From the NCBI RefSeq assembly GCF_024227435.1, contig NZ_CP100445.1, positions 2,539,369 through 2,603,368 on the forward strand: DNA of 64,000 nucleotides, read 5' to 3'. Positions 23,804-60,109 of this stretch are shown one piece after another. The notes beneath the pieces are model-generated. The model ran no database searches and was not told the origin of the DNA. It worked only from the letters and a program-made list of their open reading frames with translations. This DNA comes from Natrinema caseinilyticum. Lineage in GTDB: Archaea; Halobacteriota; Halobacteria; Halobacteriales; Natrialbaceae. Position numbers and translations under genes: made by a program. Within the stretch, counting starts at the first letter, position 1. Each line of letters opens with the position of its first letter.

Positions 23804-23942
23804 TGAGCATACGTCTCGAAGCGAAACGAATCCCGACGGCACTTCTGTAGGAGTCGTTGAACGTCGGTGCACACCCCGCTCGCGAAGTCGCGGCCAGCGA
23901 GTCTTCGCCGGTCGCGTCACTGCGAGCGGTGAGTAAATCGTT

Positions 23943-24482
23943 TCAACGACTACTGTACTCGGACGCGCGGGTCCTCCGCTCTCGCGTCGACGCGCCGTCA
24001 ATCCTCGTGAAGGCCGTCCGCGTATACAACGCGAGATCGAACTCCGGATAGGTGTGATAGGTCTCGTAGCTGTCCTCGCCGATCTCGATCGTCGTGACCG
24101 CCTCGGGATCGCCGTCGAACGCGTACGCGAGATCGAAGTCGCTCCACCCGGCCTCACACCGATCGGGCGGGAACGCCGCGAGGGGACGGTGCTCGACGAC
24201 CGTCACGCACCGCAACGCATCGGTCTCGAAGGCGAGTCGACGGGACGGACGGTCGGGCTCGAGGGGGACCACCGTTCCGCCGTTCCCCCCGCTCGGGGCC
24301 GGTTCACAGGTAGACAGTTCGTAGAATCCGTAGTCGGGCGCACTGACGTAGTGCGAACTACCGATGATCCGGAACGTGAACGCCGTCCCCAGAAATTGCC
24401 GCGTGAGCGAGTCGAACACGCGAACGTCGCCGACCTCCGGCGGGCGGTCTGCGTGAACGAACTGGAGGGTTTCACCGGTCAT
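23943..24482 (-). CDS. DUF2617-like protein
   Basis: A 179-residue soluble protein starting MTGETLQFVHADRPPEVGD, with the distinctive FRIIGSSHYVSAPDYGFYEL near residue 38. I associate this with DUF2617, a family recurrently encoded beside membrane-bound spermidine-synthase-like proteins. No catalytic motif is obvious. The gene begins two bases after the aminopropyltransferase stop, so they form one operon. The last 20 residues, rich in Arg and Ser, look unconserved. Confidence 0.65.
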   Translation of the reverse strand: MTGETLQFVHADRPPEVGDVRVFDSLTRQFLGTAFTFRIIGSSHYVSAPDYGFYELSTCEPAPSGGNGGTVVPLEPDRPSRRLAFETDALRCVTVVEHRPLAAFPPDRCEAGWSDFDLAYAFDGDPEAVTTIEIGEDSYETYHTYPEFDLALYTRTAFTRIDGASTRERRTRASEYSSR

Positions 24483-39736: not shown

Positions 39737-40819
39737 ATGAACCGCAGCACGCTCAAACAGGCGCTGGAAAACGCCGACCTCACCACCTACGAGGCTGACG
39801 CGTACCTGACGCTCGTCGACTACGGGCGCCTCCCCGCTGTCGACGTGGCGAAGAAATCAGACGTGCCAACGACCCAGGTGTACGACACGCTTCGTTCGCT
39901 GGAATCGAAGGGCTTCGTCGATACCATCGACCGGGACCGATTGCACGCAGAGCCCTCGGATCCCGTCGACATCCTCGCTCATCTGCGCAAACGGGGAGAA
40001 CTGTTTACCGATGCCGCCGAGGAACTCGAAGATCGATGGGAGCAACCGGAACTCAAAGACCACCGAGTGGGGGTCGTCAAGCACGCCGACACGGTGCTCG
40101 AACACGTCCGGAATCAGATCCGAGAGACCGACGTCGCAGTCGAAGTCGCGCTGACCGCCGACCAATTCGAGTCACTGCGGACAGAACTCTATTCGGCGGT
40201 TGACCGGGGCGTCATCGTCCACGTTGCTATCTACTACGAATCTGGCCTGACCGAACGAAGTGAGTCCTGGGACCTCTCCAGGACGAACCTCGAAGTACGC
40301 CTCGTCAATATTCCTGGTCCGTTCATCTCCGTGCTCGACCGGAGCCGAACGTACTTCGCACCGAACTCGCGGGCCGCAGAGAACTACGGTATTCTGATCA
40401 ACGACAATATCCTCTCGTTTATCAACCACTGGTACTACCAGACCTGCCTCTGGTATCCGTGGGAGTCACTGGCCTCACGGCAGGAACTCCCGAAGCCGTA
40501 TATCAGCCTCAAGGAGTTCATCAGAGACATCTCCTCGCTGCACCACAGCGGCGGGAACGTCGCCGTAACCATCTCGGGGATCGATGTGGCGGCCGACGAG
40601 TTCCGTACAGTCACGGGGACGGTCACGGAGATCTACTATCCCGACGTGATCAACGACGATTCGCCATCGCTCGAACAGCTTTCGACGTATGCGGTGGTGA
40701 CCCTCGATACCGGGGGAGCGGAACTCACCGTCGGTGGATGGGGAGCGGTATTCGAGGACATCGAAGCCCAAAAGATCATCCTGGAGGCGATTTCGTTCGA
40801 CGACGTCGTTCAGTCGTAA
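39737..40819 (+). CDS. TrmB-family sugar-responsive transcriptional regulator
   Basis: 360 residues. The N-terminal winged helix (LTTYEADAYLTLVDYGRLPA, then DVPTTQVYDTLRSLESKGFV) is the TrmB class, followed by a coiled linker (about 75-110) and a C-terminal sugar-binding TrmB domain ending FDDVVQS, with WYYQTCLWYPWESL inside. TrmB proteins repress or activate sugar uptake and glycoside-hydrolase genes according to bound sugar. It overlaps the GH3 stop by ten bases tail to tail and lies in a glucan-use cluster, so it is the likely local regulator. Confidence 0.88.
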   Translation: MNRSTLKQALENADLTTYEADAYLTLVDYGRLPAVDVAKKSDVPTTQVYDTLRSLESKGFVDTIDRDRLHAEPSDPVDILAHLRKRGELFTDAAEELEDRWEQPELKDHRVGVVKHADTVLEHVRNQIRETDVAVEVALTADQFESLRTELYSAVDRGVIVHVAIYYESGLTERSESWDLSRTNLEVRLVNIPGPFISVLDRSRTYFAPNSRAAENYGILINDNILSFINHWYYQTCLWYPWESLASRQELPKPYISLKEFIRDISSLHHSGGNVAVTISGIDVAADEFRTVTGTVTEIYYPDVINDDSPSLEQLSTYAVVTLDTGGAELTVGGWGAVFEDIEAQKIILEAISFDDVVQS

Positions 40820-43041
40820 GTCGTCTCGATGGTAAGTTCGACCGTCTGCTCGCCGACGTGAACCGAATACGCGCCCGCCTCCGTCCGTCTAACCCCGTCA
40901 GCGCCGACCTGCCCCAGCTCGGCCGCGGCGAGTTCGATTTCCGCCATTACGTTCTCACCACCGTCGAGCGAGACGCGCTGAAAGCCACGGAGTTCGCGGA
41001 CCGGCGTGACGCGTGCACTCGCGTGGTTCGTGACGTACACCTGTACGACGTCGCTTCCCGGTCGGTCACTGACGTTTGCAACCGGCACCCGAACTGTCGT
41101 CGTGTCGTGTGGCCCGATGGTCGACTCGGTCAGTGTGATGTCGTCGTACTCGAAGTCGGCGTAACTGAGTCCGTGGCCGAATTCGAACAGCGGATCGTAC
41201 GACGAGGGGTGTTCCTCCTGATCGATGGGGGTGGGATGTGGGAAGTGGTTGAACCGTGTCTGCAGGTGGCCCTCGGACTTCGGAATCGAGATGGGGAGTC
41301 GGCCGCTGGGGTCGTTCTCGCCGAAGAGCGTCTCGGCAACCGCCTGTCCGCCCATCGTTCCGGGATAATACGCCATGAGGAGGGCTGGCACGTGCTCGTC
41401 CATCCAGTCGACGATGAGCGGTCGGCCCGTGACCAAGACGCCGACGACAGGCGTTCCCGACTCGTGGATCGCCTCCACGAGCTCGCGCTGGGCGTCAGGC
41501 AGGTGCAGCGTGTGTCGGTTCGGGAACTCGTCGGGTTCGGTGCCGGTGTCGACGGTCGGGCCGAATTCGTGGAGATACCACGGTTCACCGACGGCGACGA
41601 CGGCAATATCTGCGTCTTCGGCTGCCTCGACGGCCGCATCCACATCCAGCGTGTCGTTCATCGTCGACCCCTGTTCGTAGACCACGTTGCCGGACGTGAT
41701 CGCCTCGATGCCGTCGCGAATCGTCACGACGTCGGTTCCCTCGGGGTCGGGCACACTCCAGCCGCCGAGCTGGTGGACCACGTCGTCGGCGTTCGGCCCG
41801 GCGACGAGGACGTCCGCATCCGTCTCGAGCGGGAGGAGGTCGTCGTTTTTCAGGAGGGTCATCGAGTCGCGTGCGATCTCGAGAGACGCCTCGCGATGGG
41901 CGTCGGCCCCGACCACATCACGTGCCTCGCCTGGGTCGACGAAGGTGTCCTCGAAGAGCCCCAATCGGAACTTCTGTTCGAGTACACGTTCGACACTGTC
42001 GTCGACGACGGCCTCGGCCACTTCACCGTCCTCGACCAGCGAGACGAGGTGTTCGGCGTGGTCGATCGCGTCGACGGACGCGATATCGAGGCCGGCTTCC
42101 CGGGTCTGGCGGACGGAATCGCGGTGGTCCGCGGTTATCTTGTGGTCTTCGTCGAGCATCTTCACGCCGCCCCAATCGGACACCACGGTGCCGTCGAAAC
42201 CCAGCGTCCTGCGGAGCAGGTCGGTCAGATAGCGCCGCGACCCGTGTGCGGGTTCCCCGTCGACGGCGTTGTAACAGGGCATCACCGACTCGACGTCCTC
42301 GTCCAGTACGTCGAGGAAGGACGGCAAGAAGACGTTCCGCAACAGGTACTGTGACACTTCGACCGGGGCGGCGTCTTCGCCACGCGCAGGGTCGCTGTAG
42401 GCCGGAAAGTGCTTTGCCGTCGCGATGACCGACGACGGATCTTCGATGCCATCACCCTGATAGCCGCGAACTTTCGCGGCCGCCAGTTTCGCACAGAGGT
42501 AGGGACTCTCGCCGAACGTTTCGAACGTGCGACCCCACCGTGGGTCACGCGCTACGTCACAGGTGGGGGAGTAGTTCTGGTGCGCGCCGCTTCGTCGGAC
42601 CTCAGTGGCCGTGATGCGGGCACCCCGCTCGACTGCGTCGGCGTCCCACGTCGCCCCGGCGCCGAGACCGTTGGGAAACGCCGTTCCTTCGGCAACGTAG
42701 GCGTGACCGTGGACGGCGTCGACGTTGAACAACAGGGGGATACCGAGACGTGTCTCCGAGAGCGCGGCCTCCTGGATTCGGTTGACGTTCTCGACGATAT
42801 CGTCCAGTCGCATGTCCACGGCACCGCCCCAGCCGAACGACGCGACGGCCCCGACGTTGTGTTCCGTGACTTCCGTCACGACGTCGTCGATATCTTTGAA
42901 CTCGTCGAGGTGGCCCGCCCACGTCCCGACTAATTGACCGACCTTCTCTTCGAGCGTCATTCGACCGAGTAAGTCGCTGACTCGTTCCGCGGTCGAGACA
43001 GTCGGATCCCTAAACAGCGGTTGCGTATCGCTAGACTGCAT
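40810..43041 (-). CDS. Glycoside hydrolase family 3 beta-glucosidase
   Basis: 743 residues, no signal peptide, so it acts in the cytoplasm on imported beta-linked oligosaccharides. The N-terminal GH3 barrel shows KVGQLVGTWAGHLDEF, AKHFPAY and the nucleophile motif TVVSDWGGVKM (Asp about 289). The C-terminal alpha/beta sandwich and a fibronectin-III-like domain (about 640-735, GSDVVQVYVTNHASARVTPV) complete the usual three-domain form. It is divergent from the ABC importer operon across 243 bases with TATA boxes facing each way. Substrate, probably beta-1,3-gluco-oligosaccharide, is inferred from the GH81 gene nearby. Confidence 0.92.
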   Translation of the reverse strand: MQSSDTQPLFRDPTVSTAERVSDLLGRMTLEEKVGQLVGTWAGHLDEFKDIDDVVTEVTEHNVGAVASFGWGGAVDMRLDDIVENVNRIQEAALSETRLGIPLLFNVDAVHGHAYVAEGTAFPNGLGAGATWDADAVERGARITATEVRRSGAHQNYSPTCDVARDPRWGRTFETFGESPYLCAKLAAAKVRGYQGDGIEDPSSVIATAKHFPAYSDPARGEDAAPVEVSQYLLRNVFLPSFLDVLDEDVESVMPCYNAVDGEPAHGSRRYLTDLLRRTLGFDGTVVSDWGGVKMLDEDHKITADHRDSVRQTREAGLDIASVDAIDHAEHLVSLVEDGEVAEAVVDDSVERVLEQKFRLGLFEDTFVDPGEARDVVGADAHREASLEIARDSMTLLKNDDLLPLETDADVLVAGPNADDVVHQLGGWSVPDPEGTDVVTIRDGIEAITSGNVVYEQGSTMNDTLDVDAAVEAAEDADIAVVAVGEPWYLHEFGPTVDTGTEPDEFPNRHTLHLPDAQRELVEAIHESGTPVVGVLVTGRPLIVDWMDEHVPALLMAYYPGTMGGQAVAETLFGENDPSGRLPISIPKSEGHLQTRFNHFPHPTPIDQEEHPSSYDPLFEFGHGLSYADFEYDDITLTESTIGPHDTTTVRVPVANVSDRPGSDVVQVYVTNHASARVTPVRELRGFQRVSLDGGENVMAEIELAAAELGQVGADGVRRTEAGAYSVHVGEQTVELTIETTYD

Positions 43042-43065
43042 CGTGAGAACGATTCTGTCACGTGC

Positions 43066-43077
43066 ATTTATACTTTT
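43066..43077 (-). promoter_or_regulatory. TATA box for the GH3 gene
   Basis: The minus strand reads AAAAGTATAAAT about 25-36 bases before ATG 43041, suitable for an essentially leaderless transcript. Confidence 0.6.
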
Positions 43078-43249
43078 GGATGGCCCTGACACGGCCGGTC
43101 TAAAACTCGTCGCGACGGTTCCGTCGGGACAGGCACTGATGCTGACTCGCCGCGATGTGCCTCAACTCGCGTGCGACTCCGACATGCCCCGGGGCACCAC
43201 CTGTCAAGGTGTCGGGATACGGAGCGCGATTGCCATTAACAACCACAAT

Positions 43250-43260
43250 GTTTAATATAG
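43250..43260 (+). promoter_or_regulatory. TATA box for the ABC importer operon
   Basis: TTTAATATAGG lies about 25-35 bases before ATG 43285. With the opposing box near 43070 it makes a compact divergent control region where a TrmB-family protein could act. Confidence 0.6.
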
Positions 43261-43284
43261 GTAAGTGTGCGATAATTGTACGTA

Positions 43285-45015
43285 ATGTCACGAGCTACTG
43301 AAGGCTATGGCGATCTGATTAGCCGACGGCAATTCGTCAAACTGACCAGTGTTTCTGGAGCTGCAGCCCTCGCTGGGTGTAGCGGCGGGGGTTCGTCCGG
43401 CGGCAACACTCTGACGGGCGCGACGAACGTAGGCGTCCCGACGAACATGCACCTGAATCCGATGGCGACCCAGAACTACGACTGGACTGCGGGCAACCAC
43501 ATCTTCGAGCGCTTCGCCGCCTACAACTTCTCTACACAGGAGTTCGAGTTGGCCGGCCTCGAGAACTGGTCGTTCGAAGACGAGACTGTCACGCTGACGC
43601 TGCGCGACGACCTCAAGTGGGACACTGGTGATGACGTCACGGCAGGTGACGTCATCACGCAGTTCAGACTGATGAAAAAGACCGAAGCAACGCTGTGGGA
43701 CTTCGCTGACAGCGTCGCGGAGGGCGAAAACGATAAAACTGTTGTCATCACGCTTTCGAAGCCGTCGAACCCGGAGATTATTAAACATACTCTCGCGAAC
43801 GGAGACCTTCGTATTCACGGGTACCAACCTGTCTACAACGAGTTCCTGGACAAAGACGCATCGGCCATCCAGCAGTTCGAGTGGGAAGAAGATGTCCACG
43901 GGAACGGTCCGTTCACACTGGAATCCAAAAGCGACCAGGCCTGGACGCTCTCGCGCAACGAGCACTTCTACGACGCCGATAACGTCACTTTCGACACGTA
44001 CGAACTCCTGAGCCGACAGGAAAATAGTGCCCTCCAGCAGGGGCTGATGGGCGGCGAACTCGACGTCGTCACGAGCATGTTCGCCCCCCCGAAGATCGTC
44101 GATAATTTCCCGGATCACGTCGAAGAGGTCACTCTCCCGGCGAACTGGGGGTACGGGATCATATTCAACCACGACGACGAGGACTTCGGCAACCGGAAGG
44201 TACGCCAGGCGGTCGCACACGTTGTCAATCGCCAGCAGGTCGCCGACAACGCCGGGCCGCGCACGAAAAAACCCGCGCCAAAGGTCACCGGTATCGCACC
44301 GGCCGACCAGGAGTCGTGGCTCGGCGGCGCCTACGATAGTTTCGAGAGCTACGGGGCGGAAGCTACGCAGTCCGAGGCGGCTGCCACGCTGCTCCGCGAG
44401 GCCGGCTACTCGAAATCGGGCGGGACGTGGCGTGACGATGACGGGAACGCGCTCGGCGGAAGTTACCTGACGCCGGCCGGGTGGACCGACTGGACGACCG
44501 CGACGAATACCGTCGTCGATCAGCTGAACTCCTTTGGCTTCGACTTCGAGATCAACTCGGTGCCGAGTAGCGACTTCTTCGGTACGTACACCGACTCCAA
44601 CTTCAAGATCGGTGCGTTCTACTGGCTGCCCGGTGGCGCTCGATCGTCGTACCCGTACTTCCCGCTGCGCTGGCAGCTGAACGTTCCGGACGTCGGTGGC
44701 GGACACAACTTCGCCGAAGGCGAATACACCGTCCCGGCGATGGACGGCTCGGGCGAGATGACGCTGAACCCGTTCGAAGAGATACGCAGCGTCGCGACGA
44801 TGCAAGACGAAACGCAGGCCTCCGAGACCATAACGCGGGTCGCGTGGCACAACAACCAGAACCTCCCCGTCCTTGGCCTCGTCGCGAAACAGGACCAATC
44901 CTGGCTCACCTCCGACGAGTGGGACATCGCCCCGGCCGACGACTCCGCCCGCGGTGTCAAGTGGCCGTCGCACTGGCTGCCCAAGCAAGGCAAGCTGAAC
45001 GCGTCCGATCGGTAA
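43285..45015 (+). CDS. Extracellular solute-binding protein, family 5 (oligopeptide/oligosaccharide type)
   Basis: 576-residue lipoprotein, first gene of an ABC importer operon. The Tat-type signal (SRRQFVKLTSVSGAAALAGC) ends at a lipobox Cys near residue 30, followed by a Ser/Gly linker. The mature part has the SBP_bac_5 layout, including LTLRDDLKWDTGDDVTAGDV and GIIFNHDDEDFGNRKVRQAV. In archaea this family often carries cello- and gluco-oligosaccharides rather than peptides. The neighbouring GH3 and GH81 genes favour beta-glucan fragments. ATG 43285 is preferred to TTG 43276. Confidence 0.9.
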   Translation: MSRATEGYGDLISRRQFVKLTSVSGAAALAGCSGGGSSGGNTLTGATNVGVPTNMHLNPMATQNYDWTAGNHIFERFAAYNFSTQEFELAGLENWSFEDETVTLTLRDDLKWDTGDDVTAGDVITQFRLMKKTEATLWDFADSVAEGENDKTVVITLSKPSNPEIIKHTLANGDLRIHGYQPVYNEFLDKDASAIQQFEWEEDVHGNGPFTLESKSDQAWTLSRNEHFYDADNVTFDTYELLSRQENSALQQGLMGGELDVVTSMFAPPKIVDNFPDHVEEVTLPANWGYGIIFNHDDEDFGNRKVRQAVAHVVNRQQVADNAGPRTKKPAPKVTGIAPADQESWLGGAYDSFESYGAEATQSEAAATLLREAGYSKSGGTWRDDDGNALGGSYLTPAGWTDWTTATNTVVDQLNSFGFDFEINSVPSSDFFGTYTDSNFKIGAFYWLPGGARSSYPYFPLRWQLNVPDVGGGHNFAEGEYTVPAMDGSGEMTLNPFEEIRSVATMQDETQASETITRVAWHNNQNLPVLGLVAKQDQSWLTSDEWDIAPADDSARGVKWPSHWLPKQGKLNASDR

Positions 45016-45035
45016 CACCATCAGAAGAGTACGAA

Positions 45036-46040
45036 ATGGTCAACTACTACGTGCGCCGGACGGCCAGGGTGTTCGCCACAATCTTCATGGTCGCATCACT
45101 GACGTTCGGCCTGATACGGTTGCTACCCGGCGGTCCGTATACGCAGTTGCGCGCCCAGTTACTCAGGCAGGGTGTGCCGGCTGCGGAGGTAGACGCCAGA
45201 ATCGCTAACCTACAGAACATCCGTCCGGACGCACCCCTCTGGCAGCAGTACATCGACTACATGTTCGCACTCGCCCAGGGTAACCTCGGGGAGTCGATCT
45301 CGCTCAACGAACCGGTCGTCTCGATACTCGCCAGTTCGGCCCCGTGGACCGTGTTCGTCGTGCTCGTTTCGACGATACTCGTGTTCGCTATCGGCATCTT
45401 CCTGGGGGCGCTGCAGGCGTACTGGGAAGGCTCCCGATTCGACAAGCTGTTCTCGGGTATCTCGATTACCCTGATGTCGGTGCCGTTCTACGTCGTCGCC
45501 GTCCTGGCGCTGTACGTCTTCGCCTACCAGCTTCGCTGGCTCCCCACTGCGGGGACGATTGGAACGGGAGTCGAACGGCAACTCAGCATCCCGTTCGTTC
45601 TCAGTGCGCTGGAACACAGCGTGCTGCCCATCTTCTCGTACACGCTGGGCGCCATCGGGGGACAGGCACTGGCGATGCGCGGGAACAGCATCCAGGTACT
45701 CGGCAACGACTACGTACAGGTGGCTCGGCTTCGCGGCCTCTCGGACCGTCGTATCGCGACTCGATACGTCGCCCGGAACGCCATCTTGCCGATGTACACT
45801 GGATTCTTGCTCCTGCTCGGCTTCCGACTCGGCGGGACCGTCATACTGGAGCAGATCTTCTCCTACAACGGACTCGGCTACTACCTCATCTCCGCGCTGA
45901 ACGCCAACGACTACCCGCTGATGATGGGGACCTTCCTCATCATCACCATCGCGCTCGTCCTCGGCGTCTACGTCGCGGACCTTACTTACAGCAAGATCGA
46001 CCCGCGAATCAGCGCAGGTGATTCAGATGAAGCCTACTGA
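45036..46040 (+). CDS. ABC importer permease, DppB type
   Basis: 334 residues starting MVNYYVRRTARVFATIFMVA. It has the long first extracellular loop and six membrane helices of the DppB/OppB class. The ATPase-contact EAA loop reads QVARLRGLSDRRIATRYVAR near residue 230. It follows the binding-protein gene by 20 bases and its end overlaps the next permease by 14 bases, indicating one polycistronic unit. Confidence 0.92.
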   Translation: MVNYYVRRTARVFATIFMVASLTFGLIRLLPGGPYTQLRAQLLRQGVPAAEVDARIANLQNIRPDAPLWQQYIDYMFALAQGNLGESISLNEPVVSILASSAPWTVFVVLVSTILVFAIGIFLGALQAYWEGSRFDKLFSGISITLMSVPFYVVAVLALYVFAYQLRWLPTAGTIGTGVERQLSIPFVLSALEHSVLPIFSYTLGAIGGQALAMRGNSIQVLGNDYVQVARLRGLSDRRIATRYVARNAILPMYTGFLLLLGFRLGGTVILEQIFSYNGLGYYLISALNANDYPLMMGTFLIITIALVLGVYVADLTYSKIDPRISAGDSDEAY

Positions 46041-47037
46041 TACGGACAGCGTGGATTGGCGAAGTGAGAGCAGGTCGGCACCGGACGTGACGACGCGTGA
46101 GCGACTCCGCGAGGTGTACGACGACCGGATACGTACCCCGCTACTCGTCGCGTGGGCTGACTGGCGAACGCGACTCGGCTTCCTCATCATCGGTGGGTAT
46201 CTCACGATGGCGCTCGTCGCGATCCTGGGGCTCTGGCGAGAACCGTCGACGAATCAAGCGCCGCGCTACCTCATGCTGTTCGAGAACATGAACTATCCCC
46301 TCGGCACGACCGCCTCGGGGACGGACCTCGCCGCGCTCATCGTCCACTCGACGCCCGATATCCTGCTGATGATTACCGCCGGTGCGGTGTGGGCGACGGC
46401 CGTCGCCGTCGTGATCGGGACCGTCGCCGGCTACAAGGGCGGAAGCGTCGACAGAGCACTGATGTCGTTCTCGGACCTCGTCATGGCGATTCCGGGCCTC
46501 CCGCTCGTGATTATCCTCGCGGTGACGCTCAATCCGGAGAACCCCATCCTGCTGGGCGTCGTCATCAACATCAGCTACTGGGCCGGTCTCGGCCGGTCGC
46601 TGCGCTCGCAGGTACTCACCATCCGCGAGAACGACTACGTCGAGGCGTCGCGAACTATGGGCGTCAGCACGCCCCGAATCATCCTGAAGGACATCATCCC
46701 GAACCTGATGCCGTACGTGACGGTCAACTTCGTGTTCGCCGCGCGGTACGTCATGTTCGCCTCCGTGGGGCTGTACTTCCTCGGCGTCTTGCCGTATTCG
46801 ACGCAAAACTGGGGGGTAACTCTCAACTTCGCCTACAGCGGCGGTGCGCTCTTCTCGTGGAGCGCGGCCCACTGGCTGCTGGCTCCGATGGTCGCGATCA
46901 TGGGTCTCTCACTGGGGCTCATCCTGCTCAGCCAGGGGCTCGACCGGGTGTTCAACCCTCGCGTCCGAACTCGGATGTCTGGCGAGTCCAGTTCGACGGC
47001 GGGCGACGACGACGCTGACGTGACGGAGGTGCTCTAA
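46027..47037 (+). CDS. ABC importer permease, DppC type
   Basis: 336 residues. A soluble N-terminus of about 50 residues leads to the first helix, LGFLIIGGYLTMALVAILGL. The EAA loop is YVEASRTMGVSTPRIILKDI near residue 205, and several further helices follow, as in DppC/OppC. It pairs with the preceding permease to form the channel. The stop is directly followed by the dppD-type ATPase start at 47038. Confidence 0.92.
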   Translation: MKPTDTDSVDWRSESRSAPDVTTRERLREVYDDRIRTPLLVAWADWRTRLGFLIIGGYLTMALVAILGLWREPSTNQAPRYLMLFENMNYPLGTTASGTDLAALIVHSTPDILLMITAGAVWATAVAVVIGTVAGYKGGSVDRALMSFSDLVMAIPGLPLVIILAVTLNPENPILLGVVINISYWAGLGRSLRSQVLTIRENDYVEASRTMGVSTPRIILKDIIPNLMPYVTVNFVFAARYVMFASVGLYFLGVLPYSTQNWGVTLNFAYSGGALFSWSAAHWLLAPMVAIMGLSLGLILLSQGLDRVFNPRVRTRMSGESSSTAGDDDADVTEVL

Positions 47038-47197
47038 ATGACACCGGATACTACAGCACAACGACGGCACGGTGATCCGACGGCGGCAACTGACCCGATA
47101 ATCGAGATGCGCAACGCCAGCGTCACGTACGACGACGGCGAGACGTTCGTCTTAGACGACGTGAGTATGGCCATCGAGCGCAACGAAGTGGTCGGCG
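47038..47197 (+). pseudogene. 5' fragment of a DppD-type ABC ATPase gene, cut before Walker A
   Basis: The reading frame begins properly (MTPDTTAQRRHGDP, then DPIIEMRNASVTYDDGETF and [16 protein letters not shown]). It should continue into VGESGCGKST, but at about 47197 it passes into unrelated DNA identifiable as mptA and terminates at 47283. The Walker A, signature and Walker B motifs are all missing. The product would be an 81-residue chimeric peptide without ATPase activity. Confidence 0.85.
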
Positions 47198-47841
47198 TTG
47201 CTCGAGAAACACGACTACACGTCGAAAGCCGAGGTTTCGATGGAAGCGGAGTACATGCGTCGCGAGCGGACGCCGGCGAGTGACCGCGAGACCAGCACAT
47301 GGTCGACATCGTCGCCTCGGCGACCGCCACGGACGAGGGAACCCGCGAAGAAATCGGTGCCCAGGTCACCGGCATGACCGTCTGTCCGTGCTCGCAAGGG
47401 ATGTCCGCCGCTCGCGCGAAACAGACGCTCGAGGACCTCGGCGTGGAAGAAGAGACGATCACGGAGTTCCTGGACGAAGTGCCCCAACCGGGCCACTCCC
47501 AGCGCGGGCACGCGACGCTGACCGTCGAAGCCGATGGCGATCCCGCGGTCGACCTGAACGACATCATCGACATCGCTCGAGATTCGATGAGCGCGCGGAT
47601 CTACAACCTCGCGAAACGGCCCGACGAGGACCACATGACCTACGAGGCTCACGCGGACGCCAAGTTCGTCGAGGACTGTGTGCGAGCGCTGGCCGAGGGC
47701 GTCGTCGACGAATTCGACCACTTGCCCGACGACGCGGTGATCACGATGAGTCAGTCCAACGACGAGTCGATCCACCAGCACAACGCCCACGCCGAGCGCG
47801 TCGTCGAAATGGGAACCTTACGCGGCGAAATTGCGCCCTAA
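47198..47841 (+). pseudogene. mptA: 3' two-thirds of a GTP cyclohydrolase MptA gene, frameshifted
   Basis: MptA is the archaeal Fe(II)-dependent GTP cyclohydrolase of the tetrahydrofolate/methanopterin pterin pathway, normally about 310 residues. The fragment reads [20 protein letters not shown] in one frame, then shifts by one base near 47290 into [41 protein letters not shown] and [15 protein letters not shown], ending GTLRGEIAP at 47841. The metal-binding Cys and His region is intact, but the first hundred or so residues are absent. A functional copy must exist elsewhere. An ORF from ATG 47299 could still be translated. Confidence 0.85.
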
Positions 47842-48123
47842 AACTGGAGCGGTTCCGCTTCTTTCCACCGCGGGATGAACTCCTCGTGGACGTTCGCGGC
47901 GAACTCCGGATCTTTCAGGTCGATCATTCCGAACGCCTCCCCGGACGAAAGCGGGTTCGGCACCTGAATGCACACCTCGACACCGTCGATGATGTTGAAC
48001 GAACCCGTTATGTCGTCGTTCGTGCGGACGTCGAAGTCGTCGCGCTGCTGGAGCGTCTCCCGATAGCGCTGGCCTACGTCCTCCGACAGCGAGGCGACCA
48101 TCTCGCGGGTCATCAAGAGAGCC
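47838..48123 (-). pseudogene. 3' fragment of a TrmB-family regulator gene, convergent to mptA
   Basis: Minus-strand coding DNA encoding LLMTREMVASLSEDVGQRYR, TGSFNIIDGVEVCIQVPNPL and FIPRWKEAEPLQF, the C-terminal domain of a haloarchaeal TrmB-like protein. Its stop overlaps the mptA stop, so the two fragments arrived together as a contiguous convergent pair. The helix-turn-helix half is missing. The fragment ends at about 48118, exactly where dppF coding begins. Confidence 0.75.
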
Positions 48124-49220
48124 AGAGAGACACCGTTTCCGACGCGACTGTCCGAGACGACGCCGACGCACCGCTCATCTCGCTCGACGACGTCAACGTC
48201 CACTTCGAGAAGGAACAGGGGCTGTTTGAATTCTTCGAGGACCCGGACGTCGTCAAAGCGGTCGACGGCATCTCGCTCGACATCGAGGAGAACGACGTTC
48301 TCGCGCTCGTCGGCGAGAGCGGGTGTGGGAAGTCGACGTTGGGTAAGACAACCATCGGGCTACAGCGACCGACCGCCGGAACTGTCCGGTACCGCGGGCA
48401 GGACGTCTGGGCGGCCAAGGACGGAACCGGCGAGGTCGACATCCCGTTCAGCGATATCCGTTCGTCGCTCCAGATCATTCATCAGGACCCCGGAAGCTCG
48501 TTGAACCCGAATCGTCGAATCGTCGACATCCTCGCCCAGCCCATCAAACAGACGCACCCCGACATCGGCCTCGGTGAGCGACGCGCGCGAATCTACTCGC
48601 TGCTCGAGCGCGTCGGGATGAACCCGGCGGCGGACTTCGCCGACCGCTATCCACACCAGCTCAGTGGTGGGGAACAACAGCGCGTCGCACTCTCCCGTGC
48701 GCTATTGATGAACCCCGACCTCATCCTCGCCGACGAGGCGATCAGCGCGCTCGACGTCTCCCTGCGCGTCGAGATGATGGACCTGATGTTGGACCTGCAG
48801 GCGGACTTCGACACATCGTTCGTGTTCATCTCGCACGACCTCTCGAACGCACGCTACTTCGCCGAACACGGGGACGGGCGCATCGGCGTGATGTACCTCG
48901 GTGAACTCGTCGAAGTCGGGACAGCCGAGCAACTCATCGAGGACCCTCGACATCCCTACACCAACGTCTTGCGGTGGGCGACGCCGGACCTCGCACTCCA
49001 CGCGGCCGGCGCGGGCGAACCACCCATGCGCAAGATCGACATCCCCGACCCGGTCGACCCGCCGAGTGGCTGTCGCTTCCACACGCGCTGTCCCGAAGCG
49101 CGCGAGGCGTGTCGCGAGTCCTGTCCAGCCCTCACGGGTGAGACAGACGGACACCGCACCGCGTGTTTCCGCAGCCAACCGGACCACGAGTACTGGGACA
49201 GCGCACCGCTGGAAGACTGA
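48117..49220 (+). CDS. DppF-type ABC ATPase lacking its start codon
   Basis: 368 codons of an otherwise complete importer ATPase: LISLDDVNVHFEKEQGLFEF, Walker A GESGCGKSTLGKTT, Q-loop IIHQDPGSS, signature YPHQLSGGEQQRV, Walker B LILADEAISALD, switch His VFISHDLSN, and the Cys-containing oligopeptide C-terminal domain (SGCRFHTRCPEA). The frame enters from the TrmB fragment with no ATG, GTG or TTG near the junction; the first Met is about residue 167. Expression would need readthrough from upstream or a non-standard start. Confidence 0.8.
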   Translation, partial: ESQRDTVSDATVRDDADAPLISLDDVNVHFEKEQGLFEFFEDPDVVKAVDGISLDIEENDVLALVGESGCGKSTLGKTTIGLQRPTAGTVRYRGQDVWAAKDGTGEVDIPFSDIRSSLQIIHQDPGSSLNPNRRIVDILAQPIKQTHPDIGLGERRARIYSLLERVGMNPAADFADRYPHQLSGGEQQRVALSRALLMNPDLILADEAISALDVSLRVEMMDLMLDLQADFDTSFVFISHDLSNARYFAEHGDGRIGVMYLGELVEVGTAEQLIEDPRHPYTNVLRWATPDLALHAAGAGEPPMRKIDIPDPVDPPSGCRFHTRCPEAREACRESCPALTGETDGHRTACFRSQPDHEYWDSAPLED

Positions 49221-49249
49221 GCGGTCGGCCGTCAAGGGGCCAGTCGTCG

Positions 49250-49682
49250 GGTCGGGGAATCGCCCGCAAAGCGGGTGCAATCGGCCACGACGTGACGGTG
49301 TTCACCCGCGGCGAGACCGAGACCGATCTTCCAGACTCGGTCGATCACGGGACGGTCGACCGAACCGCCCGCGACGCCTTAGCGCGGGCGCGTGACGAAC
49401 TCTTGCTCGGGTGCGTGATCGGCATGGTCGTCTTCGATTCGCCAGATATCGAGACGGCTATCGACGTGCCGACCAACGTACTCCGCGAGGCAGTTCCCAG
49501 TCGCGTGGGGCCGCCGTTGGATCATTTCCAGTTCTCGATCCTGGGGAGACGGTGTCGAACGGACGGTTCCCCGTCTCGAAGCCGACGACACGATAGCCGA
49601 CTGGGACACCGACCCCGAATGCGACGCCGCCGTCTCGGCGTGGCGTGATGTGATGAATATCTTCGACGGTGGCGGCCGATAG
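49250..49682 (+). pseudogene. Decayed NAD-dependent epimerase/dehydratase gene
   Basis: Coding remains read GIARKAGAIGHDVTVFTRGE, TETDLPDSVDHGTVDR and DCV-like GCVIGMVVFDSPDIETAID, the N-terminal nucleotide-binding half of an extended short-chain epimerase. After a deletion and frameshift near 49540, a different frame gives TIADWDTDPECDAAVSAWRD up to stop 49680-49682, probably the same gene's end. The Rossmann GxxGxxG and the catalytic YxxxK are not preserved. It lies just after the importer, where a sugar-metabolism gene would fit. Confidence 0.6.
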
Positions 49683-49733
49683 TCCATCTGACTCGTCGAC
49701 TGTCGGGCACGCGGGCGGACGCCCGGCGCTCGC

Positions 49734-50192
49734 TCACTCGGTGACGAGCGTCGTGTAGCCGTCGAAGTTGAGGATGACTCGCTGTGCGAAGTCGCCGAAG
49801 ACGGCTTTCCCGGCGGGTGACCGGGAGGTTCCGACGATGAACACGTGGTCACACTCGCGTTCCACGGCCGTATCGAGGACGTGCTGAGCACGCGTCGTTT
49901 CGGAGTCGACGACGACCACGATTTCCGGGTCGACGTCCGTCTCCGACAGTACCGATTCGACGAACGCCGTCGCGTCCACCGCGGCACCCTCGACGATAGC
50001 CGAGTGGTCGTAGTCGACGTGTTCGACCCGCTCGATCGATTCGAGGGTGTCCACATCGGCATCGTATTCGCCTTCGTCGAGGTGCCAGAGGACGACGAGT
50101 TTGCCGTCGGCTCCGGCGCACCACTCCGCCGCTTCCGCGAGGAGTTCGCGATGTGTCTCCGACTCTCTGAGGCTTACTAACCCGCGTTTCAT
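49734..50192 (-). CDS. Universal stress protein (UspA-type), single domain
   Basis: 152 residues in the UspA alpha/beta fold. The ATP-binding-type signature appears at the end as VGTSRSPAGKAVFGDFAQRV, followed by a final strand YTTLVTE. The N-terminal strand MKRGLVSL lacks the usual Asp of the ATP pocket, so nucleotide binding is uncertain. It is acidic and cytoplasmic. It is likely a general stress protein and not part of glucan use. Confidence 0.85.
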   Translation of the reverse strand: MKRGLVSLRESETHRELLAEAAEWCAGADGKLVVLWHLDEGEYDADVDTLESIERVEHVDYDHSAIVEGAAVDATAFVESVLSETDVDPEIVVVVDSETTRAQHVLDTAVERECDHVFIVGTSRSPAGKAVFGDFAQRVILNFDGYTTLVTE

Positions 50193-50343
50193 ACATTCAG
50201 TGCTCCCTCGCTCGATGTATAAACCTACCGCTCAGTGGGCTATCGGCCGGCAGTCGATACGGTCCAATCGTCGCAATCGGGGTCACGGACCGTCTGCCGG
50301 CGCTGACCGGGACGTTAATGAGCGTTCGGCTGAAAGTGACGAT

Positions 50344-50577
50344 ATGAGATTCAGAGAGGTCCTCATGGACGCAGTCTGCGAGCAGCGGGACCAAATACCG
50401 CTCCTGCTCGCGGTCGTCACCGTGATGGGAATCCTCCTCGCGTTCTCGTTTCTCTTTCTCCAGTCCGGTACCGCCGCGTACGTCATCGCACTCGTCGACC
50501 TGCTACTCGTCGTCGGGAGTCTCGTCACGTTCGGCGGCACGTATTGGTACTGTACGAAGCGGGCGATGAATAACTGA
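50344..50577 (+). CDS. Small two-helix membrane protein, 77 residues
   Basis: MRFREVLMDAVCEQRDQIPL precedes two hydrophobic helices, LLAVVTVMGILLAFSFLFL and YVIALVDLLLVVGSLVTFGG, and a basic tail. No family is recognised. It is divergent from the stress-protein gene with about 150 bases between them. Wobble use matches the core genome. Confidence 0.6.
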   Translation: MRFREVLMDAVCEQRDQIPLLLAVVTVMGILLAFSFLFLQSGTAAYVIALVDLLLVVGSLVTFGGTYWYCTKRAMNN

Positions 50578-50894
50578 GGTCGCTCTCCCGGATGCGACGT
50601 GCTGGTACGGATGGAATCCCTGCTGTCGTTTGCAGGTCCGATTCCCTTGGCCAGCGATGGGGTGCTCGGTACCGGAGGCGGTACGATTCGAGCAACGCGG
50701 CCGTCTCTGCCGCGAAGATCGCAATCTCGTCGTCACCAGCAGCGTCGGCAGACCGCTGATCGATCGGCGTTCTCTCGGAGCGCCAGCCTGGTTTTACTGG
50801 ATCGCTGGCACGTCCTCGCTCGATCGTACTACCGGAAACGGTGAGAAAAGTGGCGAAAAAGTGCGACGCGATCGGGACCTGTCCGAGACCGACC
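50578..50894. other. Intergenic region, no gene seen
   Basis: 317 bases between converging genes; only shadow frames rich in Arg and Ser. No terminator hairpin stands out. Confidence 0.5.
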
Positions 50895-53846
50895 TCAGGC
50901 TACCACGGTCTTCGTCTGCGTTCTCGTGTTGCCGGCGGCGTCGGTTACAGTCAGGATCACGTCGTAGCTGCCCGAGCCCTTCTTGTCGCGGACGTTCGTC
51001 GTATCGGACGCGCTCGATCCGCTGACGCTGATCGTCTTACTGGCTTGCACACCGTTCTGCCGGAGTTCGACGACGACCGACGAGAGATCGCCGTCGGCGT
51101 CCGAAACGGTCCAGTTTACGTTGAAGCTCGCCCAGCCACCGTTCGAGACGTTCGTGACGCTGACGCTGTCGATGGTCGGGGCAGTTGATCCGGTCGACCC
51201 GGAGTCGGTCGTCACCGAGACCGTGTTCGAAGCGCTCGACTCGTTGCCTGCGCCATCAACTGCCGTGACGTAGCAGTCGTAGGTGGTGCTCGTCGAGAGG
51301 TTCGAGACCGTCGTCGACGTGGTCCCGGCGGTGACTTCCTGGTCTTTCGTTCCGTCGACGTACACGTTGTAGTGGTCGACGCCCGTGCCGTCGTCGCTCG
51401 AGGCGTCCCAGGAGAGGTCGACTGACGTGTCCGTTTTACCGGTCGCTGTTAAGTTCGACGGCGCGGTCGGGGCAGTCGAGTCGCCCGACCCCCCACCGCC
51501 AGCCCCGGTCGATGTGGCCATCGAGTTCGCCGACACGTCGAGGGCCGTCCCATCGGAGAACGTGACCGTGATCGGCGAACTCCCGCCGTTGTACGCGACG
51601 TAGGTCTTGGCAGTGCCGTCGTCGAACACGGCCGTTAGGGGATGGTCAGCTGTGATCGACGGATCGGGCGTGCCCATCCCGTCTATGTTGTAGATCCAGT
51701 GGTACGTGTGGGCCTTCGTCTCGCCGAATTCGACGGGATAGCTGCTCTTCTTCGCTTGCCACCTGTTCTTCGCGTCGGTCACGTCCGAGAACGATCGGAA
51801 CATCCACACGATGTCCGGCCAGTAGCTGAAGTCATCGCCGTCGACGTCGTTGGCGACGAGTTCGTCGTAGTTCGACTGGGCGTACTGGGTGTCCCAGCCG
51901 AGGAACTCCATGTGGGCACACATCGGCAGCATGTTGATACCGTGGATGGCCTCGGTGTCGGTGGTCCACCAGGTGGTGTACTTGTAGCCGTTGCCCCACA
52001 CCATCGCAGCGTAGTCGTAGTTCCAGCCCGACGGCTGGTTCTCGTTGTCTACGTCGAACCAGTATTCCCGGACTGCGGAGCGTTCCTGCGTGTAGAGGAA
52101 CACGCCAGCGTCGCGAATCTCGGTGTCGTTGGTGAACTCTCCCCAGAGGATCATCGACGCGTAGGCGTTGAGGGCTTCCGAGGAGGACTCCTGGTTGTTC
52201 CCCTCGGCGAACGCAGACCCGCCACCGTCTGCCCACGAGTGTCCCTCGTAGGGACTGAAGTGGCGCAAGAACGGGAACATCGAATCCGACCGATCGGGGT
52301 TCGCGAAGTCCCGAATCAGGAGATCGACCATGCCACCCCAGTTGGAATCGTGGGCCCACGTCGAATCCTTTCGGGCGACTTCTGCGGCGCCGCGGACGTA
52401 GTAGCCGTAGTGGAAGTGGTGGTCGTTGATGTTTGCGCCAGAACCGAACGAATCGTTGTAGCCGATGAGCGTCCCCCAGTTCTGGTTGTAGTAGAACACG
52501 TCCTCCGAGGTGGTTTTCCCGCTCGAATTAGCGTCGAACCAGAGTTCGAGGTCGTCTTTGAGCCCCTTCGTGTTCTGATCGCCGTTGAGGAAGTAGTCCG
52601 CGGCGGCAGTGTCACCTAACTGTTCTGCGATCGGGATGATCTCGGCCAGTCGACCGTAGTTCTTGCCGGTCCAGTAGGTTCCGTCGCCGGGGTTCTCCGG
52701 ACCGGTGCGGACCAGCGTCCGTGAACTCTCCTCGTCGTCGACGTAGTTCTGTAGTTCCGTCTCGTCGTAGGTTCCCTCGTCGGGCAAGAATGGGAGGATC
52801 CCGCAGAACGAGTGCGTCGTGGTGAACGACCCGCCGGCGACGGTTTGCATCGTCCCACGCGCGGATTCGTAGGTGTATCCCTCGAACGTCTCACTCGTGT
52901 TCTTGTGCTGATGCGGGAACAGCGCCGAGAGGGTTCCTGACGACGAACTTTCGGCCTTCGCGCTCGTCGAGACCGTGTAAGTCGTGACGACCTCGCTGGC
53001 TGTTTCGTCGTAGTTCCAGGATATCTGGGTGTCAGTGAGGAAGTTGTACGCGTACTGTTCGAAGTCTGCGAGTGCCGTGCTGGTCGCTTCCGGTAGTGCA
53101 GCGACCGTGAGATACCCCGCACCAGCGAGGTCGGACGTTAATTCGGTCGTTCCCTTCCCCGACCACGTCGCCCCGGAGGGCGCGTATAGACCGTATGCGT
53201 GGCCGTCGATCGACACGCCCAGCACGTTGCCGTCGTCGGTAAAGACCGTCGGCGCCGAGGGAAACGAGAGAGCAGCGCCACCGCCGCTATACTCGCAGAA
53301 GACGTACGGTGATCCTTGCGCCAGGGTTATCGAGAGGCTCGTCGACGTGCCCCCTCCCCAGACAGCGTCGACAGACCAGTCGCCGTAGCCGTCACAGCGC
53401 ACGTCCTCAAACGAGGAGGTCGCCGCGTGACCGATCGTCAGATCTGTCGCGTCGTCCATCATCGCGACGTCCCCCTGATGGGGATCGTTCGACGAGTCAG
53501 TCGTGTACGTCCACTCTGTCGGGTTACTGACGTCCAGCCCGACTCCGTTTGCGTCGAACGCGAGTGGATGTGCGAACATCGGTTCCGAATACTGGAACCA
53601 CAGCAGCGTACTCCACCAGTCGTTCGTCGGCAGTGGTGCAGACACGTTCGACGTGGTATACCGTGTCGACGGGGGTTCTGATTCCCCCGAGGGAAGTGTC
53701 GTCTTGTAGCTGCCCTTGCCGACCGAAACCGATGCCGCATTGGCGGTTCCAAGCGTTCCGAGTCCGGCTGCAAGCCCCAACGCAGAGACGTACGATCGTC
53801 GGGAAAGCCGATGCGAATCGCCAGTACTATTGTTCTCGTTCACCAT
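50895..53846 (-). CDS. Tat-secreted GH81 endo-beta-1,3-glucanase with fibronectin III and Ig-like domains
   Basis: 983 residues. A Tat signal (SRRSYVSALGLAAGLGTLGT) indicates export in folded form, without a lipobox, so it is probably released. Residues about 50-750 form the GH81 laminarinase module: LPTNDWWSTLLWF near the start, NINDHHFHYGYYV and the catalytic-Glu segment AEGNNQESSSEALNAY near residue 550. A fibronectin III domain (about 800-885) and a final Ig-like beta domain follow, both acidic and Thr/Ser-rich. It hydrolyses internal beta-1,3-glucosidic bonds of laminarin-like glucans. It should feed the importer and GH3 enzyme in this island. Confidence 0.92.
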   Translation of the reverse strand: MVNENNSTGDSHRLSRRSYVSALGLAAGLGTLGTANAASVSVGKGSYKTTLPSGESEPPSTRYTTSNVSAPLPTNDWWSTLLWFQYSEPMFAHPLAFDANGVGLDVSNPTEWTYTTDSSNDPHQGDVAMMDDATDLTIGHAATSSFEDVRCDGYGDWSVDAVWGGGTSTSLSITLAQGSPYVFCEYSGGGAALSFPSAPTVFTDDGNVLGVSIDGHAYGLYAPSGATWSGKGTTELTSDLAGAGYLTVAALPEATSTALADFEQYAYNFLTDTQISWNYDETASEVVTTYTVSTSAKAESSSSGTLSALFPHQHKNTSETFEGYTYESARGTMQTVAGGSFTTTHSFCGILPFLPDEGTYDETELQNYVDDEESSRTLVRTGPENPGDGTYWTGKNYGRLAEIIPIAEQLGDTAAADYFLNGDQNTKGLKDDLELWFDANSSGKTTSEDVFYYNQNWGTLIGYNDSFGSGANINDHHFHYGYYVRGAAEVARKDSTWAHDSNWGGMVDLLIRDFANPDRSDSMFPFLRHFSPYEGHSWADGGGSAFAEGNNQESSSEALNAYASMILWGEFTNDTEIRDAGVFLYTQERSAVREYWFDVDNENQPSGWNYDYAAMVWGNGYKYTTWWTTDTEAIHGINMLPMCAHMEFLGWDTQYAQSNYDELVANDVDGDDFSYWPDIVWMFRSFSDVTDAKNRWQAKKSSYPVEFGETKAHTYHWIYNIDGMGTPDPSITADHPLTAVFDDGTAKTYVAYNGGSSPITVTFSDGTALDVSANSMATSTGAGGGGSGDSTAPTAPSNLTATGKTDTSVDLSWDASSDDGTGVDHYNVYVDGTKDQEVTAGTTSTTVSNLSTSTTYDCYVTAVDGAGNESSASNTVSVTTDSGSTGSTAPTIDSVSVTNVSNGGWASFNVNWTVSDADGDLSSVVVELRQNGVQASKTISVSGSSASDTTNVRDKKGSGSYDVILTVTDAAGNTRTQTKTVVA

Positions 53847-54019
53847 GGGTGTTTGTCACTAGCGCACCAGCGTCGCGGCCGATATACTACTACGAACCGC
53901 GTTAATGCTGATACGGTAGTCCACCAGCAAATCGGACGTATATGTAATAAATTAATCGGTGGTTTCCATATCGAAACTTTTATCCAGTAGGAAATCTATT
54001 AAAGTTGGGGAGGGCGACG

Positions 54020-59411: not shown

Positions 59412-60109
59412 GGTGCTGTTCAGATAAGGCTGAAGGAGTGAGGCGTGGCGTTTTCAAAGTGATTCATGCCCGAAAACGCACGCCTCAGTCCTAGTATCGG
59501 CCAGTTCGACTTGGATTTTGTGGAGCGAGAAGCAACACCGCGGCTGTTGATGAAGCTCAGTATTCAGCTCCATCTTGCTGGACTCTCGCTTTCGAATACT
59601 GTTCGTGTTCTCGAGATATTCGGTGTTGAACGGGCTCGATCGACGATTCATAACTGGGTTCACAAGGCAGATCTACAGCCCGATTCCTGTCGAAGCCCGG
59701 ATCACGTTGCAGTTGACGAGACGGTGATCCGGCTTGACGATGAACAGTATTGGCTGTACGCCGCTGTCGATCCAGAGTCAAACGAATTACTCCATACAAA
59801 GCTTGAACCGACGAGAAATAAGGTCATAGCCAGTACATTCTTCACGGAATTACGCGAGAAACACGATGTCGATGACGCTGTGTTTCTCGTTGATGGGGAT
59901 AAATCACTGAACTACGCCTGTCAACGGCATGGCCTCGATTTCAGATACGAACGACATGGAAATCGGAACAGTGTCAAACGTGTCTTTCGGGAGATAAAAC
60001 GTCGAACCTCTTCTTTCTCAAACTGCTTTAGTAACGCTCACGCAGAAACTGCTGATCAGTGGCTCAGATCGTTCGCCTTCGCATGGAATCAGCTTATCTG
60101 AACACGATG
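59412..60109 (+). mobile_element. Intact IS6-family insertion sequence, 698 bp
   Basis: Bounded by imperfect 17-bp inverted repeats, GGTGCTGTTCAGATAAG (59412-59428) and its partner CTTATCTGAACACGATG (60093-60109); 13 of 17 positions pair, and the inner 12 are perfect. It contains one complete transposase gene and is flanked by an exact 8-bp duplication, so the insertion is recent. It interrupts a Tat-exported protein gene. Confidence 0.9.
59466..60101 (+). CDS. IS6-family transposase
   Basis: 211 residues, the compact haloarchaeal IS6 type. A helix-turn-helix is seen at LSLSNTVRVLEIFGVERARS. The DDE catalytic residues are visible as the first Asp in HVAVDETVIRLDDEQYWLYA, the second in VFLVDGDKSLNYA and the Glu in KRVFREIKRRTSS. 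The gene fills the element and ends inside the right inverted repeat. All parts look intact, so the element may be active. Confidence 0.93.
   Translation: MPENARLSPSIGQFDLDFVEREATPRLLMKLSIQLHLAGLSLSNTVRVLEIFGVERARSTIHNWVHKADLQPDSCRSPDHVAVDETVIRLDDEQYWLYAAVDPESNELLHTKLEPTRNKVIASTFFTELREKHDVDDAVFLVDGDKSLNYACQRHGLDFRYERHGNRNSVKRVFREIKRRTSSFSNCFSNAHAETADQWLRSFAFAWNQLI

Follow-up and report, generated by a model that had tools for sequence, protein, structure and literature searches.

The process closest to the event described here is templated insertion, or microhomology-mediated break-induced replication with template switching, and in yeast and human cells most of the insertions recovered after break induction are described as ~50-300 bp long (PMC11724301). 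The reports that we found deal with yeast, human cells and other eukaryotes, and no archaeal example of templated insertion stood out in a literature search covering the titles and abstract openings of the 12 papers listed out of 80. A second point of comparison is provided by H. volcanii, a haloarchaeon without Ku that uses microhomology-mediated end joining, a pathway that, in the accessible part of the source, always gives deletions (PMC7776575). The locus reported here shares with this pathway a haloarchaeal setting, in which Ku was not found here either, and short common sequences, but it differs in that a templated filler of 923 bp has been added at joints with 1-2 bp in common (compare PMC7776575, same part). 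It also departs from templated insertion as described in the part of PMC11724301 mentioned above in that native DNA of equal length has been lost, so that the event would be a replacement and not an insertion alone. The third known situation is the intragenomic assembly chimera, which the locus resembles in that a segment recurs at a second position of the assembly and breaks an otherwise intact operon, and from which it is distinguished by the lack of overlap at the joints and by a frameshift private to the copy.

The locus lies on the chromosome of Natrinema caseinilyticum (genome of 4.77 Mb in three contigs, 99.83% complete, 3.86% contamination), within what is called the window hereafter, namely the whole stretch of 64,000 nucleotides that was analysed (C1:2539369-2603368). 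In this assembly, the native segment of dppD, in a dpp/opp-type ABC transporter operon, is missing, and its place is taken by a duplicate of the region in which mptA and a TrmB-family gene converge with their 3' ends, the source of which stands intact elsewhere on the same chromosome. The features of the region, in window coordinates, are the following:

43276-45015, plus strand: substrate-binding protein, intact, 579 aa, equal in length to that of the relative
45036-46040, plus strand: dppB-type permease, intact, start set from the 334-aa protein of the relative; Opp/Dpp/Nik permease models below cut-off
46018-47037, plus strand: dppC-type permease, intact, 339 aa, equal to that of the relative; permease models below cut-off
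47038-47198, plus strand: what is left of dppD, its 5' end with 53 complete codons; the frame continues into the block and stops at 47283, giving an ORF of 81 aa
47198-47198, no strand: left joint, one common base (T), from window, relative and donor compared side by side
47198-48120, no strand: intruding block, a copy of C1:2809428-2810351 with no substitution and one base missing
47198-47841, plus strand: mptA (GTP cyclohydrolase MptA), the 3' two-thirds, with a frameshift at ~47292; Pfam GCHY-1 on 47299-47841; parent TIGR00294
47838-48120, minus strand: TrmB-family regulator gene, 3' end only, covering part of the DUF7436 domain (Pfam DUF7436); parent with PF01978 and DUF7436
48119-48120, no strand: right joint, two common bases (GA), dppF ATG lost, from the same side-by-side comparison
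48119-49220, plus strand: second ABC ATPase, dppF, with its native start codon missing; ABC_tran and oligo_HPY domains

Every NCBIfam model matching the proteins of the operon stays under its cut-off, so that no substrate is assigned to the transporter on this basis. The reference used throughout is Natrinema gelatinilyticum BND6 (NZ_CP100756.1), the nearest relative in the searched set, whose operon holds an intact dppD of 360 aa with ABC_tran and oligo_HPY domains, overlapping dppF by 4 bp. The DNA identity to this relative is 94.6% up to window position 47198 and 93.5% over 48119-49314. From its ATG at 47038, the dppD of the window tracks the ABC ATPase of the relative for 53 complete codons (up to RNEVVG, plus a V at the joint that matches by chance) and departs from it at 47198/47199, directly ahead of Walker A, as the first-pass annotation had proposed; in a tblastn search, residues 1-58 of the N. 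gelatinilyticum dppD match the window at 84%. The same annotation had described one clean block of about 920 bp, in its native convergent order and without IS or repeat at the joints, as having replaced most of dppD, and had foreseen a full mptA/trmB pair elsewhere in the genome. This description proved accurate, the exact size being 923 bp and the intact pair lying at the C1:2809428-2810351 locus. To it we add that the right joint also removes the ATG of dppF. The dppF sequence resumes at 48119/48121, and the in-frame starts left to it are GTG codons at 47280, 47388 and 47886, all within the block, and then a TTG at 48339, beyond Walker A. Because the start codon of dppF is gone as well, both ATPases are probably lost or impaired, and the transporter would have ceased to function.

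A DNA search of the strain's own genome with window 47000-48200 returned two places, the region itself and C1:2809413-2810351 on the other strand. The source of the block is 924 bp long, on the minus strand of the same chromosome, at an mptA/trmB locus that lies 222 kb away and is inverted relative to the block. A base-level alignment gives 923 identities over 924 donor positions, with one missing base and zero substitutions; its full count of 926/928 extends four columns beyond the left joint, three of them matching and one a gap, and a looser alignment overruns the right joint by 15 columns, with five mismatches there. The missing base, at ~47292, changes CCC to CC and shifts the frame of the mptA fragment, which scores as GCHY-1 in the frame after the shift; the donor is without the deletion. 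Of the 957 nt of mptA in the donor, the final 645 correspond to the block, which has 644 of them; the TrmB-family gene, 816 nt long, contributes its final 283 nt, the two overlapping by 4 nt. A domain scan of these fragments gave GCHY-1 and DUF7436 only. Both donor genes are intact and convergent. The donor MptA (318 aa) reaches 416.3 bits with the TIGR00294 MptA equivalog, against a cut-off of 220; the regulator gene has a longest ORF of 301 aa (271 aa with the start of the relative), its protein carries the TrmB HTH PF01978 (74.7 bits against a cut-off of 25.6) and DUF7436, and it matches the NCBIfam TrmB equivalogs below their cut-offs. The presence in the same genome of a second locus that is identical over 923 bp except for one missing base means that the block is not a chance assemblage. 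As in templated insertion, the donor from which the inserted DNA was copied stays in place. A foreign donor, or contamination, was considered and rejected, since the block has no substitution relative to the strain's own locus but 93.4% DNA identity to the sequence of the nearest relative. As a separate observation, a second mptA, 80% identical, occurs at G028:C2:349662-350277, coordinates which match the 508-kb Natrinema zhouii plasmid NZ_CP084882.1.

The joints are also of the blunt or short-microhomology kind seen in templated insertion, with 1 bp in common on the left and 2 bp on the right. None of the repeats of at least 14 bp within 46900-48400 spans either joint; no terminal inverted repeat, target duplication or transposase was found at the joints or in the block, nor any common repeat or long overlap at the joints. 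Joints of this size, free of IS and repeats, argue against gene conversion as well as against a repeat-driven misassembly. Ectopic gene conversion between dppD and mptA/trmB would fit a one-way copy beside an intact donor, and haloarchaea such as H. volcanii are polyploid, according to the accessible part of the source (PMC7776575). At the right joint, moreover, 31 of 80 ungapped bases match (39%), above a background of ~26.5%. However, donor and recipient have around the tract no real homology from which conversion could be initiated: the left joint has 17 matching bases of 80, and the native dppD (923 bp), set ungapped and in register against the donor, is 27.0% identical, where registers shifted by -60 to +60 have a mean of 26.5% (s.d. 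2.3%, maximum 31.7% at +14). Conversion is consequently very improbable; of the three origins contemplated in the first-pass annotation it is the one that is disfavoured, illegitimate templated recombination and assembly artefact both surviving.

The operon is part of a ~14-kb cassette (window ~40810-54010) that occupies a different chromosomal place in N. gelatinilyticum, at 10-11 kb from mptA as compared with 222 kb here. It is 93-95% identical between the two Natrinema, their common backbone being 85-95% identical (mostly 89-93%), and Natronorubrum aibiense carries a related cassette on a plasmid. The cassette is likely to move horizontally, as a mobile unit of oligosaccharide use. The glycosidase beside the operon matches a gene that is annotated as GH3 in N. 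aibiense and, together with a 983-aa neighbour protein that is presumably GH81-like, suggests that the transporter would import oligosaccharides. With the cassette itself found at varied sites and on a plasmid in relatives, it could be supposed that an IS, a plasmid or a virus brought in the block and deleted dppD. This supposition is barely credible, as no inverted ends or repeats lie across the joints, viral contigs gave no exact match to the left joint, none of the 31 plasmid records among the matches listed for the region exceeds 90% identity, and no record was found with the block inside such an element.

No other place in the genome gave a high-identity match to the interior of the native dppD. 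A reciprocal swap, in which the native dppD would have been relocated, was rejected, since the high-identity matches are the two ends of the region itself, both in the window, and the best full-length paralogue in the genome has 43% protein identity. The intact dppD that the first-pass annotation had thought worth seeking elsewhere in the genome did not emerge from this search; it is present in relatives. Across 19 relative loci, dppD is an ORF of 359-376 aa in 14 and is fused to the next ATPase in three (L067, L068 and L072); in L071 the ORF is extended upstream to 675 aa, and L073 has no dppD match. The three fused cases belong to Halosimplex species, where dppD and dppF form a single ORF of 741-747 aa. 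Between the aligned flanks, N. gelatinilyticum has 920 bp (1953524-1954443) and the window also has 920 bp, so that the length is unchanged. Among the 13 unaligned gap pairs between the two genomes with at least 150 bp on both sides (13 of 47 pairs, one of which, with a difference of -12, overlaps another and is partly a product of chaining), the length difference is 0 in this pair alone. The dppD of the N. aibiense plasmid is longer, at 1092 bp, than the 1083 bp of N. gelatinilyticum, which leaves perhaps ~9 bp of uncertainty on the ancestral length in this strain; the equality with the closest relative is exact.

Such exact conservation of length could result from gap filling towards an estimated size, and it is quite conceivable, at somewhat less than an even chance, that the whole arrangement is an assembly artefact. 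A dppD stretch of the right length would then have received mptA/trmB sequence belonging to the same DNA, by such gap filling, through a chimeric read or as a coordinate-based patch, and in the cell dppD would be intact. In line with this, both flanks are intact and ordinary right up to the joints, the one missing base may be a consensus error left uncorrected, and no other dpp flank joined to an mptA block was seen among the matches listed from 29 genomes of the genus and 125 of the family, including the strain's own. Assemblers and gap fillers normally join on longer overlaps. Joints with 1-2 bp only leave an overlap- or repeat-driven misjoin nothing to use, and an artefactual copy, if its locus was well covered, should show no difference from the original. 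The few contigs and the completeness and contamination figures given above, as well as the small number of frameshifts nearby, also speak against an artefact, as does the lack of any further such chimera in the 400 kb compared. This self-comparison covered 400 kb of the 4.77 Mb, holding both loci, so that duplicates with one copy outside it are missed, and it gave no other pair of at least 100 bp at 92% identity or more. Among the own-genome matches listed for window 4001-64000, there is one other near-identical stretch above 100 bp, of 698 bp at 59412-60109; it has two copies at 98-99% on contig 2 and is possibly an IS. A partly palindromic repeat of ~110 bp at window 23845-23957 has ~25 further copies (78-91%) on contigs 1 and 2, some of them matching both strands, which suggests a MITE- or REP-like element. 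In a rough test of ORF integrity over the 400 kb, 90 of the 115 ORFs of the relative were matched to at least 80%: 82 were full, six broken (one by a frameshift-type split, five by an in-frame stop, possibly in spurious ORFs) and two partial, one of these being dppD. The reverse test, equally rough, matched 91 of 199 ORFs, with 72 full, 15 broken and four partial. Frameshift-type breaks are rare nearby (one split in 90 tested ORFs), and the copy carries its own 1-bp deletion, which counts in favour of a real event.

Given the absence of overlap at the joints and the private frameshift of the copy, we slightly favour a recent, homology-independent templated replacement over the artefact, the two being nearly even, and we hold it about as probable as its contrary. 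We propose that a break or a collapsed fork may have arisen inside dppD, and that under repair an end would have copied ~924 bp spanning the point, 222 kb off, where mptA and trmB converge, before being rejoined to the operon where dppF starts, through 1-2 bp of microhomology. The donor would have remained intact, with ~920 bp of native dppD and the start codon of dppF lost. That the DNA is real, that a break occurred and that copying ran in this direction are steps that we infer. Ku was not found in the genome by a search whose control was positive in one of 14 known genomes, and by analogy with H. volcanii the haloarchaeal route would be a Ku-independent microhomology joining. Against the templated replacement, the microhomology of 1-2 bp is no more than expected by chance, and the replaced and inserted lengths are the same relative to N. 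gelatinilyticum (920 and 920 bp). We know of no illegitimate process that predicts such an equality. It could be accommodated by a replication-coupled excursion, in which a nascent strand would be extended by ~920 nt on mptA/trmB while the fork advances by a similar distance, and would then return home, a possibility that we consider very improbable.

The remaining genes of the operon are without decay, so that the templated replacement would be either very recent or not real. At window 49255-49660 there is, in addition, a frameshifted and internally deleted remnant of an epimerase-like gene, which Halomicroarcula rubra has as an ORF of 335 aa (L056 10409-11416) and of which N. gelatinilyticum has a shorter remnant. 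The decay of this distal gene in both Natrinema makes a real loss of function believable. The 346 bp at 49315-49660 that are lacking in the relative were also considered as a second chimera; this was rejected, as no second genomic copy appears among the matches listed and the sequence instead reads as part of the epimerase-like remnant.

If the arrangement is an artefact, it means that an archaeal genome in three contigs can contain a clean chimera that involves no repeat, and that a working transporter then looks dead. If it is real, it represents a base-resolved templated replacement on the kilobase scale, without homology, in an archaeon, and the equal length would have to be explained. Should the replication-coupled excursion be the right one, the equality of loss and gain would be no coincidence but a mark of the process itself, and further length-neutral, homology-free replacements would be predicted in haloarchaeal genomes.
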